Assembly (NCBI RefSeq): GCF_900291975.1
Contig: NZ_OMPN01000001.1
Coordinates: forward strand, 186,001 to 250,000
Reading direction: 5' to 3'
Length of the DNA stretch: 64,000 nucleotides
Source: Agathobaculum massiliense
GTDB taxonomy: Bacteria > Bacillota > Clostridia > Oscillospirales > Butyricicoccaceae
Numbering within the stretch: the first letter of the stretch is position 1; every line of letters starts with the position of its first letter. This document shows positions 41,281 to 45,328 of the stretch, piece after piece. Under the pieces are notes generated by a model that worked only from the letters and a program-made list of their open reading frames with translations, did not search any database and had not been told where the DNA came from. The position numbers and the translations under genes are program-made.

Positions 41281-41793
41281 TTATCTCCCGAAAAAGGCAC
41301 GAAAAAAATCATGCACCTTTTCAGGCAGGCCGTCCAAGTCGCCGTCATTCTGGAAAACACCATCGTAGGAATATTCCAGTACGCCGTCATCCGAACGGTT
41401 TCCCAAAGCGCCGCGCGCCTGCTCCAAGGCAGGGCGCCGCACCAGAATTGTGGAGCAGCTTTCCCCAACAGCCGACCGGAATCGGTCGATTTCCTCCGGC
41501 TCCCGAATATGGACAAACAGGATTTGGGCGTCTCCCTGCAGAAAGCGGTGGTACCGCTCCATACAATAGGAGAACGGCAGATCGTTGAATTCCGTGCATA
41601 CCTCTTTTAAGCGGGACAGGAAGCGGCGCGCTTCCGGCGTTTTCCGTCCGTCCCATCCGGCCGCGTACGCGACATCCAGGATCGGAGTGATTGACGAGAT
41701 GTTTTCCGCTTTCCAAAATCGGGCCGCCGCCACGCAGACAGTGTCTTTCCCAACGCCTCCGCTGCCATTGATGACAAAAACATGCTTGTCCAA
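41281..41793 (-). CDS. P-loop nucleotide/nucleoside kinase-like protein
   Basis: A 170-residue protein with Walker A in INGSGGVGKDT, which resembles deoxynucleoside and nucleoside monophosphate kinases or dephospho-CoA kinase. ILFVHIREPEEIDRF follows near residue 95 and fits a Walker-B strand. I chose TTG ending at 41793, with GGAGGG 6 bases away; an ATG at 41835 is also in frame but lacks a site. No family assignment is firm and the substrate is unknown. It stands alone behind its own promoter. Confidence 0.6.
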   Translation of the reverse strand: MDKHVFVINGSGGVGKDTVCVAAARFWKAENISSITPILDVAYAAGWDGRKTPEARRFLSRLKEVCTEFNDLPFSYCMERYHRFLQGDAQILFVHIREPEEIDRFRSAVGESCSTILVRRPALEQARGALGNRSDDGVLEYSYDGVFQNDGDLDGLPEKVHDFFRAFFGR

Positions 41794-41830
41794 CAAACTC
41801 CCTCCAAGGTGTCGATATTCATACGGATTT

Positions 41831-41859
41831 ATCATAACACAATATATAGCGATTGGCAA
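41831..41859 (-). promoter_or_regulatory. Putative promoter of the P-loop kinase
   Basis: Minus strand: TTGCCA (41854-41859), a 17-bp spacer, TATGAT (41831-41836) with a TGT extension. Confidence 0.6.
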
Positions 41860-41936: not shown

Positions 41937-43412
41937 TTACAGGATAATGCAGATCAAACCGCCTGCGCTTTCGTTAATGATTTTTTCCAGCGTTTCCCGT
42001 ATTTTCCCGCGTGCATCATCCGGCATGCGGCTGAGCTTATGCGATAATTCCTCCCGCACCAGCTCGTTGAGGGATTTCCCGAAAATATTGGTGTCCCAGA
42101 TTTTTTCCGGCTGCTCTTCAAATTCACTGAGCAGATAATGCACCAATTCTTCGGACTGTTTCTCCGTTCCTACGATTGGGTTGACCTCGGCTTTGATATT
42201 GGCGCGCATCAGATGGATCGAGGGGGCGGACGCACGCAGACGGACGCCGTACCGCCCTCCCTGCCGGACGATCTCCGGTGCCTCCAGGGAAAGCTCGTCA
42301 ACCGACGGCATGACAATTCCATAGCCGGTCTGATATACCTGATCCAGCGCACCTCGCAGACGCTCATACTGCTGCTTGACCTTGGAGAAATCATCGAGTA
42401 CGGAAATCAGGTCGGCCGCATCCCCAATATGGATACCGGTCTGTTCCCCAACGATACTGTAGAACACGCTTTCCGGAATATCCACCTTAAGGCGCGCCGC
42501 GCCGGTACCCAACGCGAGCTGGTCGATATCCACCCTTCCGATATAATCATTTTCCGCAATCGCCCCGCACATGGCGCGGACATCGCGCATCCTCTGTCCT
42601 GCACGCGCCGAGGAGCGGATGGAGCGGTAAACGCTGGATTGTACGGGGTGTCCGTCAGGCAGGGCGCCGATATATCTCGGCAGAACAAATCCGATCTCTT
42701 TCACCGGAAATTCATACAGCACCTGCTGCAGGATATCCGCGATCCCCTTGTCGTCCAGTTCCATGCAGTTGACTGCGACCGGTTCAACCTGGTACCGCTC
42801 CCTGAGCGTACTGCAGACTGTCTGCGCTGTTTCACCGCGCGGGTCAGCGGAATTCACCAAAACGACAAACGGCTTGCCCATCTGGGTCAGCTCCTCGATC
42901 ACCCGCCGCTCAGCCGGTTCATAGCTTTCCCTCGGTATCTCTGTAAAGCTTCCGTCGGTCGTAACGACAAGGCCGATCGTCGAATGCTCTCCGATCACCT
43001 TATGCGTGCCGACCTCGGCCGCCTCAGCCAGCGTCATCGGTTCCTCCCGCCACGGTGTGGATACCATGCGCGGCGCGTCGTCCTCCATGCTGCCCAGCGC
43101 GCCATCGACCAGATAACCGACGCAGTCTACCAGGCGGACCCGACAGGAGCCTCCGTCCGGAAGGGCGATCTCCGCCGCCTCCTCCGGAACGAATTTCGGT
43201 TCCGCGGTCATGATCGTCCGTCCGGTACCCGATTGCGGCAGTTCATCGCGCGCGCGTTCGCGTTTATAGACGTTATCCATGCCCGGCAGGACCATGGTCT
43301 CCATAAAACGCTTAATCAGCGTCGATTTGCCGGTGCGTACCGGTCCGACCACGCCGATATAAATATCGCCGCCGGTGCGGGCGCTGATTTGATTATAAAT
43401 TTGATTTTCCAT
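41937..43412 (-). CDS. spoIVA: Stage IV sporulation protein A, coat-basement ATPase
   Basis: A 491-residue ATPase that polymerises on the forespore surface as the base of the coat. The length matches B. subtilis SpoIVA (492). Walker A is GPVRTGKST (G23-T31, Lys29). The middle and C-terminal domains end in the short hydrophobic tail SAGGLICIIL. I chose the ATG ending at 43412 behind AAAGGCAGGG; the frame's TTG at 43430 lacks a site. It lies 14 bases after sipL and close to spoVM, its membrane recruiter, so anchor, adaptor and basement protein are together. Confidence 0.97.
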   Translation of the reverse strand: MENQIYNQISARTGGDIYIGVVGPVRTGKSTLIKRFMETMVLPGMDNVYKRERARDELPQSGTGRTIMTAEPKFVPEEAAEIALPDGGSCRVRLVDCVGYLVDGALGSMEDDAPRMVSTPWREEPMTLAEAAEVGTHKVIGEHSTIGLVVTTDGSFTEIPRESYEPAERRVIEELTQMGKPFVVLVNSADPRGETAQTVCSTLRERYQVEPVAVNCMELDDKGIADILQQVLYEFPVKEIGFVLPRYIGALPDGHPVQSSVYRSIRSSARAGQRMRDVRAMCGAIAENDYIGRVDIDQLALGTGAARLKVDIPESVFYSIVGEQTGIHIGDAADLISVLDDFSKVKQQYERLRGALDQVYQTGYGIVMPSVDELSLEAPEIVRQGGRYGVRLRASAPSIHLMRANIKAEVNPIVGTEKQSEELVHYLLSEFEEQPEKIWDTNIFGKSLNELVREELSHKLSRMPDDARGKIRETLEKIINESAGGLICIIL

Positions 43413-43426
43413 AATATCCCTGCCTT

Positions 43427-44905
43427 TCAAGCCTGTATCGGAATCAGGAGCATGGTTTTCGACGCGCTGACCGCATCCGGCGGTAAATCATTTGCCCGTC
43501 GGATTGCTTCCATGGTCGTGCCGCAGCTTTTGGCTACTTCCCAAAGCGCCTGCTCCTGATCGATGTAACGCAGCACCAATGTAACACCATCGTTGTTTTT
43601 TGGGGCTTCACTTTCCTCTAATGCGGTGATATTGCGGAACACGCAGCGCTCCTCCAGCGCTGCCATACCGGATACCGCCACTGATAGAAGCAGTCCGGTT
43701 TCGCCTGCTGCTGCGGCGCGGGCATTCAGTTCGATCTGGGACAGCTCGCCCATAGCGGTACAGGAGGCGGTCAAGGGCAGCGTGCGCTGCAACGCAGAAA
43801 GCTGCTGTTCATCGTTCAGATATAAAACCTGCACCGCCACCGTGAGCTGCAGCGTATTGGTCGTGGTATTTCTCTTCGCCCCGCAGCAGACAGCGCCGGC
43901 GTGTATGATATGGGACACATGCTGCGCGGTCTGCAGTGTTTCATTCACCTCCGCGGCAAACGGCGTCAGCGGCGGCATAGAATGGAGCGCCGCCTTTTCC
44001 TCTTGGATCTGCAACGTTTTCCCAGGGATATACATGTCGTCGATCTGCTGGATGCTTTTGGTGCCGCGCACCGTGAAAGCGGCCTCCGCCGATATCGTAT
44101 ACGAAAGCAGCCCATCCGACTCCAAACGGCAGTCGACCTCGTGCGCCGCCAAACGGACCGATACCGGATCGCTCTCTTCCAGGTCTGGGATCTCCAATAT
44201 CTGCGTAAACGGCGTGCTGTTTGAAAGCACGCGAACCGCATCATCCTCCTGCAGCGCAAGGCATTGCAGGACTGCCTCGCCTTTCAGCACAACTTTCCCA
44301 CGCATCGCGCGGCATTCCGTGCTTTTCAGCGTGCAGGCCGTATGCAGGAGCTGTAGGTCGTTCGCATCCTGCAGCGTCACGTCTTCCAAAATCGTAATCG
44401 GGCAGCTATGCGCCTGCTGTACAACGGTAACTGTATGGGGCGTGCGCAGCATCTGTATCTGCGGCAGCTCAACGCCCTCTGTAACCTGACAATCAGCCTT
44501 GCAATAGCATTCCACCTCAAAGCAGAGCTGAGCGCTGACGTTCAGTTTCCGGCTGTTGACCGGCACTGCGTCCACCGCCGCAACACGGCACGATACATAA
44601 CAGACGGCATCCGCATCCAGCCCGTCACACTCCTCTATATAGGCAAAGCTGATGGGAACGGACAGCCTGCGCAGCCCTTCCGCGTTTTCCGGCTGGTACA
44701 ATATGGTCGTCTGCACGGCACCGGAAATCAGCAGACGTCCGTTCTGCGGTGTGCGGTCCTTGACCGCTGCCGTTCCATACGCGCAAATGACCCTTCCGAT
44801 GTCCGGAAAGGTATCCGGAACGATCGAGTCGGAAGACTCGGTGCAGGAGGAAATCCCTGCAAGCCTTTTGTCATAGTAGCAGATGCTTGTTTGATTCAGT
44901 TCCAT
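43427..44905 (-). CDS. sipL: SPOCS-LysM coat morphogenetic protein SipL
   Basis: A 492-residue protein with SPOCS (DUF3794) segments, such as SIVPDTFPDIGRVICAYG and a repeat near 200-280. A C-terminal LysM domain follows, about 445-490 (LWEVAKSCGTTMEAIRRAND). In Clostridioides difficile SipL binds SpoIVA through LysM; it takes the place of SpoVID. The ATG ending at 44905 has AAAGGAGG upstream. The frame stays open to 45064, but that stretch crosses a terminator and spoVM. It is 14 bases before spoIVA. Confidence 0.93.
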   Translation of the reverse strand: MELNQTSICYYDKRLAGISSCTESSDSIVPDTFPDIGRVICAYGTAAVKDRTPQNGRLLISGAVQTTILYQPENAEGLRRLSVPISFAYIEECDGLDADAVCYVSCRVAAVDAVPVNSRKLNVSAQLCFEVECYCKADCQVTEGVELPQIQMLRTPHTVTVVQQAHSCPITILEDVTLQDANDLQLLHTACTLKSTECRAMRGKVVLKGEAVLQCLALQEDDAVRVLSNSTPFTQILEIPDLEESDPVSVRLAAHEVDCRLESDGLLSYTISAEAAFTVRGTKSIQQIDDMYIPGKTLQIQEEKAALHSMPPLTPFAAEVNETLQTAQHVSHIIHAGAVCCGAKRNTTTNTLQLTVAVQVLYLNDEQQLSALQRTLPLTASCTAMGELSQIELNARAAAAGETGLLLSVAVSGMAALEERCVFRNITALEESEAPKNNDGVTLVLRYIDQEQALWEVAKSCGTTMEAIRRANDLPPDAVSASKTMLLIPIQA

Positions 44906-44943
44906 TGATGCTGCCTCCTTTGTTTCACTGCTGCTCCTGTTTA

Positions 44944-44972
44944 ACGATATGTTCCCTTTTTGCTGAATATGA
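44944..44972 (-). promoter_or_regulatory. Sigma-E-like promoter of sipL-spoIVA
   Basis: Minus strand: TCATATT (44966-44972) fits the -35 consensus KMATATT exactly, with a 14-bp spacer to CATATCGT (44944-44951), which matches five of seven fixed bases of CATACAnT. In B. subtilis spoIVA is sigma-E-controlled. It lies right behind the spoVM terminator. Confidence 0.6.
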
Positions 44973-45004
44973 AAAAAGCAGAGGCTTTTCTGCCTCTGCT
45001 TTTC
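44973..45004 (-). terminator. Terminator between spoVM and sipL
   Basis: Minus strand: AAAAGCAGAGGC / GCCTCTGCTTTT with a short AGAAAA loop, then TTTTTT. It starts 3 bases after the spoVM stop. Confidence 0.88.
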
Positions 45005-45006
45005 CC

Positions 45007-45078
45007 TCATGTAATATGGAACAGCTTGCAAAGAATACCGCGCAGATATTTCGGGCTTTTCCAAATGACCACTTTCAT
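45007..45078 (-). CDS. spoVM: Stage V sporulation protein M (SpoVM), 23 residues
   Basis: A 23-residue amphipathic peptide that embeds in the convex forespore membrane and recruits SpoIVA. It begins MKVVIWKSPKYLRGIL and shares K2, K7, P9, K10, L12, G14 and I15 with B. subtilis SpoVM (26 residues), including the key Pro9. The ATG has a strong GGGGAGGTGG site. The neighbours are sipL and spoIVA, its known partners, which makes the call secure despite the short length. Its last residue is Thr and there is no basic tail. Confidence 0.9.
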   Translation of the reverse strand: MKVVIWKSPKYLRGILCKLFHIT

Positions 45079-45097
45079 GCCTCCACCTCCCCAGTTA

Positions 45098-45244
45098 TCA
45101 GCATTGAAACAAAAACACGCCTGCCGCGATCAATGCGAGCGCCAGCAGCCACAGCAGCAGGCCGGACGGACATATGCTGCCGACAAGCAGGCCAAGTCCC
45201 AAACTGATCAACGCCAAACCGATCGCTTGCCCACGGCAGAACAT
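45098..45244 (-). CDS. 48-residue hydrophobic membrane peptide upstream of spoVM
   Basis: Begins MFCRGQAIGLALISLGLGLL and ends GVFLFQC, with two hydrophobic segments (about 8-22 and 28-46) split by a CPSG turn. CAGGAG lies about 11 bases before the ATG. It ends 19 bases before spoVM, so both probably share a transcript and a sporulation role. I know no named family. A spore-membrane protein is inferred from position only; it was found by reading the frame, so the coding call is moderate. Confidence 0.6.
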   Translation of the reverse strand: MFCRGQAIGLALISLGLGLLVGSICPSGLLLWLLALALIAAGVFLFQC

Positions 45245-45296
45245 TGCACATCACGCTCCTGTCATCAGTATAAGCAGCGTATCCGGAGATGGTGAC

Positions 45297-45325
45297 AAAA
45301 AAGGGACCGCCAGCCGGCGGTCCCT
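45297..45325 (-). terminator. Intrinsic terminator after dut
   Basis: Minus strand: GGGACCGCC / GGCGGTCCC with a 4-base GGCT loop, followed by TTTTTT; it separates dut from the sporulation genes. Confidence 0.9.
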
Positions 45326-45328
45326 CTG

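Follow-up and report, generated by a model that had tools for sequence, protein, structure and literature searches.

Two small reading frames precede sipL and spoIVA on the minus strand of a 64,000-nucleotide stretch of DNA from Agathobaculum massiliense; this whole stretch is referred to as the window. The question raised by the locus is whether the four genes constitute one unit, made together, or whether the two small frames are a unit of their own. An earlier note on the same DNA had favored the former: it described a hidden spoVM and a 48-residue membrane peptide, the latter as a candidate undescribed part of forespore membrane remodelling, and it placed a complete initiation set in one block. 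The features of the locus, listed in the direction of transcription, are as follows.

45297..45327, minus strand: terminator hairpin with T-run, 3' of a dUTPase-like gene and upstream of the pair (RNA fold, z -4.3, 56 nt folded).
45267..45294, minus strand: predicted mother-cell promoter of the pair, of the sigma-K type (-35 CAC(C); 17 nt from AC to the -10 element CTTATACT).
45256..45260, minus strand: ribosome site AGGAG of the 48-aa frame (from the sequence; AGGAGCGTGATG in 22/22 genus genomes).
45098..45244, minus strand: 48-aa two-segment membrane micropeptide of the CD25622 type, a predicted helical hairpin (ATG at 45244).
45086..45092, minus strand: ribosome site GGGGAGG of spoVM (from the sequence and relatives).
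45007..45078, minus strand: spoVM, 23 aa, MKVVIWKSPKYLRGILCKLFHIT (NCBIfam NF033436, E 9e-4, and relatives).
44971..45006, minus strand: terminator hairpin in the spoVM/sipL interval (RNA fold, -24.7 kcal/mol, z -6.2).
44944..44971, minus strand: sigma-E-type promoter of sipL, CATATT-N14-CATATCGT (conserved in the genus).
43427..44905, minus strand: sipL, start at 44905, a predicted separate transcription unit (Pfam SipL, E 2.8e-22).
41937..43412, minus strand: spoIVA (TIGR02836, E 1e-198).

Read along the minus strand, the order is nrdD, a radical-SAM activase gene (Pfam Fer4_12), the dUTPase-like gene, a terminator, the 48-aa frame, spoVM, a second terminator, sipL, and spoIVA. The first gene of this row was taken to be nrdD from a reading of its frame. 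The two small frames are separated by 19 bases, and the family matches of the last two genes uphold the earlier placement of sipL-spoIVA next to the pair. In the sipL leader (44905-44943), a second recurring stretch, CAGGAGCAGCAGTGAAA, is located between the promoter and the ribosome site in many of 20 genus loci. Downstream of spoIVA, a 192-aa frame (41281-41859, minus strand) contains a P-loop-like GGVGKDT stretch, as judged by eye; it had no NCBIfam match.

The 23-aa frame was claimed as a hidden spoVM behind a strong ribosome site, and this assignment held. SpoVM is reported to be seldom annotated in genomes (Galperin et al. 2012, PMC3533761). The window copy matched NF033436 with 19.2 bits, below the curated cut-off of 31; the same family was matched at E<=0.01 by 26 of 30 aligned order members (window copy included), with a best value of 1.9e-13. 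The pN/pS of the frame was 0.09 (19 sequences). With 23 residues and Pro9, it lies inside the range applied to SpoVM (22-30 residues, Pro9), and Pro9 was invariant across the 30 aligned order sequences; this proline was the only fully conserved SpoVM residue in a 2017 alignment (PMC5607322). With regard to an amphipathic helix behind Pro9, the moment of residues 10-22 was 0.54, a value reached by 464 of 5000 shuffles. At two loci (L294 in G123 and L240 in G101), SpoVM-like frames that follow a two-TM peptide are devoid of Pro9 (MKVVVMKSTGF... and MKIVVVKCKGV...).

The 48-aa frame is a real, conserved gene that is tied to sporulation via SpoVM. Its pN/pS was 0.39 (21 sequences), compared to 0.87 and 1.91 in the other two sense frames; one antisense frame gave 0.50, yet it contained stops in 18 of the 21 sequences. 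Variation was maximal at codon position 3 (0.36) and minimal at position 2 (0.10). An overlapping 59-aa GTG frame in the +2 frame was dismissed (stops in three of 21 relatives, pN/pS 1.91). The hydropathy of the window peptide reached 2.56 in 17-residue windows, and it has the two membrane segments and the length (45-55 aa) used to define such peptides. AlphaFold2, supplied with three sequences of the 47 residues that follow Met1, placed helices at 3-23 and 27-46 in a helical hairpin (mean pLDDT 74, pTM 0.38). The two-segment pattern and the glycines were retained in 36 diverse order members. Compared to Pfam and NCBIfam, the window peptide gave nothing but matches far below the cut-offs. Membership in a known family was considered and dismissed, as the 36 aligned members gave scattered weak matches in these databases, the commonest being Pfam DUF6249 (three members, best E 1.4e-4) and NCBIfam YtaF (four members, best E 0.0053), from match tables that carry no cut-offs. 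A search for related loci started from the window peptide yielded no relatives.

Profiles were used to establish the distribution of both frames. Separate searches per frame in 25 genus genomes found the same 22 genomes. In all 22, the two frames are located together on one contig and strand, with a spacing of 15-19 nt. Both were found in all 15 genus genomes that were >=90% complete and <=5% contaminated; the three genomes devoid of the pair were 78-81% complete, and the sipL match was absent from them as well. The earlier description of a two-segment peptide 19 bases before spoVM is therefore sustained, and a lack of conservation of the small frames, which would have counted against it, was not observed.

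Among 297 order genomes, the micropeptide profile found 100 places in 98 genomes, and 60 of the 65 places wanted were examined. Where spoVM matches were listed, 51 of 56 micropeptide places were directly upstream of spoVM, and the other five matched only in part, within much longer frames (326-910 codons). At 16 of 35 order places, the SpoVM-like frame downstream was judged by pattern and by eye. Conversely, of the 96 listed order spoVM loci that had no profile match to the micropeptide, 60 were examined; 36 of these 60 have a diverged two-segment frame upstream (38-75 aa, two segments, with its end between -70 and +25 nt relative to spoVM), a rule satisfied by five out of 165 control ORF starts and by 31 out of 1200 positions chosen at random. 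By the same rule, the remaining 24 loci had no two-segment frame, although at least two of them have one about 105 nt upstream. In several of the 24, spoVM is located right behind a gene that was read by eye as, presumably, rsgA.

The order-only profile was also applied to 343 class genomes and found 141 micropeptide places in 137 genomes. Of the 81 micropeptide matches whose genomes also gave a SpoVM match, 72 were directly upstream of SpoVM (17-115 nt), although class SpoVM matches that are weak (E near 0.01) could be spurious. These 72 adjacent pairs span 25 families, and 66 of them are outside the order that made the profile; the adjacent pairing is thus class-wide in Clostridia. Of 63 class spoVM loci that had no adjacent match (five order genomes set aside), 40 were sampled; a two-segment frame was located within 120 nt in 12 of these, and 28 have none by the rule. 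Of 60 micropeptide places in class genomes with no SpoVM match, 25 were sampled: a SpoVM-like frame (14 + 5, judged by pattern and by eye) followed in 19, and none in six. In one family, four genomes (G363, G515, G334, and G467; loci L295, L296, L248, and L308) have the micropeptide beside a convergent rpmB; the interval contains no SpoVM-like frame, and none of the four gave a SpoVM profile match at E<=0.01 genome-wide.

One class match (G565, E 1.6e-6 with the order-trained profile) is 50 aa long, and four Clostridioides difficile records carry this peptide with 100% identity; it is located 35 nt before spoVM, with rpmB opposite. Because its length and position agree, it was assigned to CD25622, which it fits. 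CD25622 is cotranscribed with spoVM in C. difficile, an insertion in it was no worse than the spoVM mutant, and the authors ascribed little impact to it (Ribis et al. 2017, PMC5607322). The insertion is likely polar, and the strain is therefore in effect a double mutant; that its defect does not exceed that of the spoVM mutant is compatible both with one pathway and with dispensability. SpoVM itself was described as nearly dispensable in C. difficile, and sections 6 and 7 of that paper describe no deletion of CD25622 alone (PMC5607322).

Taken as a whole, the pair is probably a small mother-cell sporulation operon composed of a CD25622-type two-helix micropeptide followed by SpoVM. In B. subtilis, SpoVM is described as bringing in SpoIVA and beginning the coat base. 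The micropeptide may be located at the coat-membrane interface, in the mother-cell membrane. The predicted hairpin would enter the outer forespore membrane from the side of the mother cell. Its glycine-lined helices might there help to anchor both SpoVM and the coat base, or might keep SpoVM stable. The micropeptide could also have some role of its own, because it is retained at places that have no visible SpoVM frame next to it.

How far that role extends bears on the alternative that survives best: the micropeptide would perform its own mother-cell membrane job (e.g. membrane or cortex homeostasis) and share only a transcript with SpoVM. Two observations do not sit easily with a simple accessory role and agree with such a job, namely the double mutant of C. 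difficile, in which no phenotype was added to that of spoVM loss (PMC5607322), and the four genomes that keep the micropeptide by rpmB without SpoVM. However, the pair has been kept through many gene neighborhoods, which shared timing alone would hardly enforce. A fully separate job is accordingly considered plausible but appreciably less than an even prospect.

The timing of the predicted operon was addressed through its promoter. Promoters of sigma-E and sigma-K have very similar -10 elements and are distinguished by the -35 element, ATA versus AC (Saujet et al. 2013, PMC3789822); many endospore formers were expected to share these consensus sequences (Eichenberger et al. 2004, PMC517825). 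In all 22 genus pairs, AC is found 17 nt before an eight-base (C/A)(T/C)TATANT box. A stricter promoter rule was applied to the 130 nt upstream and compared to the means of shuffled sequences. AC-type sites were found before 19 of 22 genus pairs (shuffled 0.5), 53 of 96 order loci among the matches listed (shuffled 2.8), and 13 of 46 class-sample loci, four of the 46 being from the order (shuffled 1.2). For ATA-type sites, the respective counts were 0/22, 4/96 among those listed, and 5/46 (shuffled 0.2, 2.3, and 1.7). In the sipL regions, the same rule gave 21 of 23 ATA-type sites and none of the AC type. It classed the C. difficile pair promoter as ATA (sigma-E) type, in line with the published sigma-E control of spoVM in that species (PMC5607322).

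To check the sigma-E assignment at the genome level, CATATT-N14-CATANNNT was sought; it was found at five sites in the window's genome and at one in a reversed control. The sites precede sipL, spoIIIAA, and three further genes: one is spoVB-like, one encodes an M23 peptidase that matches SpoIIQ below the cut-off, and the last (L324) is mntP-like, a putative manganese efflux gene. The canonical sigma-K pattern was not enriched in the window's genome (six matches, compared to 18 in the reversed control), nor was a stricter one (three, compared to nine). These patterns are therefore no evidence for or against sigma-K at other genes, and for the pair we infer sigma-K from the -35 rule established in C. 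difficile and B. subtilis. By that rule, the pair in this order would be transcribed by sigma-K RNA polymerase, after sipL-spoIVA, which has the sigma-E type.

Alternatively, the pair could be under sigma-E, the conserved AC belonging to an activator site and not to a -35 element of sigma-K. This accords with the sigma-E control of spoVM in C. difficile (PMC5607322) and in B. subtilis (Eichenberger et al. 2004, PMC517825), and with the fact that nearly the same -10 is read by both sigma factors (PMC3789822). We consider it rather unlikely: AC stands at one exact spacing throughout the genus pairs, and in the order the AC type far exceeds its shuffled mean whereas the ATA type is near chance (4 versus 2.3).

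The relation of the pair to sipL-spoIVA was examined at the sipL loci of 20 genus genomes, over 900 nt upstream of the sipL match. The pair was just upstream on the same strand in ten, inverted in one (G008), and not within 900 nt in nine. The two frames are nevertheless together elsewhere in those nine genomes: in two (G024 and G011) about 1.7 kb upstream of sipL on the same strand, and in the other seven on another contig or far from sipL. At the inverted locus of G008 (L023, L042), sipL keeps its sigma-E-type promoter. In two further genomes (G001 and G014), the pair is present and the sipL match is absent. Over 78 pair loci, the downstream neighbors fell into 50 clusters, a number that is an overestimate because some of the longest ORFs are spurious. 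SipL was the commonest single class (at least 16), and the pair-sipL arrangement therefore recurs. The expectation that the two frames would be conserved before sipL in related genomes was accordingly borne out for the frames themselves (22 of 25 genomes) and for their position in only half of the sipL loci.

These data bear directly on the idea that all four products (curvature sensor, micropeptide, adaptor, and ATPase) are made together as a single module for early initiation, which is what the earlier note had proposed. The physical order of the genes in the window speaks for it, as do the ten genus loci with the pair just before sipL, the two at about 1.7 kb on the same strand, and the prominence of sipL among the downstream neighbors. 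However, terminators are located on both sides of the pair, sipL has a separate sigma-E-type promoter behind the second of these, the pair is not within 900 nt (nine) or is inverted (one) in half of the genus sipL loci, its own promoter is of the sigma-K (late) type, and its neighbors are many even when the overestimate is considered. The conserved unit is the pair, not the four-gene block, and by prediction there is no single initiation operon; a module of four is quite improbable. A leader function, in which the 48-aa frame is translated only to set the output of SpoVM, is the least probable reading of all, and very much so. Its 5' position and the short gap (15-19 nt in the genus) might argue for it; amino-acid constraint (pN/pS 0.39), a two-segment pattern with glycines kept in 36 diverse order members, and retention of the micropeptide where SpoVM is absent argue against it.

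The preferred reading, a mother-cell operon of micropeptide and SpoVM, may be extended. The micropeptide would be a class-wide SpoVM companion that outlived SpoVM in some lineages and, in this order, moved with it to late sigma-K control; there the two would lock or finish the coat-membrane junction, SipL and SpoIVA having started coat assembly without them. This extension is offered tentatively, as it falls a little short of an even prospect. For many spore-forming Clostridia, a long-missed companion of SpoVM in spore formation is suggested. A conserved membrane peptide next to SpoVM, absent from Pfam and NCBIfam, and a predicted late shift would provide two testable reasons for a possible difference of coat assembly in Clostridia.

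Compared to known systems, the window SpoVM resembles the NF033436 family in its length, Pro9, Lys2, Ile15, and sporulation setting. It differs in having Trp6 for Ile6, in its sub-cut-off score, and in its predicted sigma-K timing; in B. subtilis SpoVM, the I6A change is reported to block SpoIVA binding (Ribis et al. 2017, PMC5607322). SpoVQ of C. difficile (CD3457; PMC8265636) is described as bitopic and Peptostreptococcaceae-specific, and by that description it was set apart from the micropeptide. The closest counterpart is CD25622. Like the window micropeptide, it is a two-segment hydrophobic peptide directly upstream of spoVM; the profile links the two, and a three-row alignment has G, P, ALxLI, and a C-terminal C in common. 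The two differ in sequence (26% identity), and CD25622 is further distinguished by its rpmB locus and sigma-E-type promoter. Among the papers searched for CD25622 and related tags, the only one to come up was Ribis et al. (2017, PMC5607322), and among titles on SpoVM none was found that concerned a wider family of the micropeptide. The description of the peptide as undescribed consequently holds only in part: since the C. difficile match fits CD25622, the micropeptide is not wholly new, and it was its range that had been missed. CD25622 was described as "primarily conserved among the Peptostreptococcaceae" (PMC5607322), whereas the adjacent pair was found here in 25 families. The cotranscription of the C. 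difficile member with spoVM was known; the class-wide range of the CD25622-type peptide is new.
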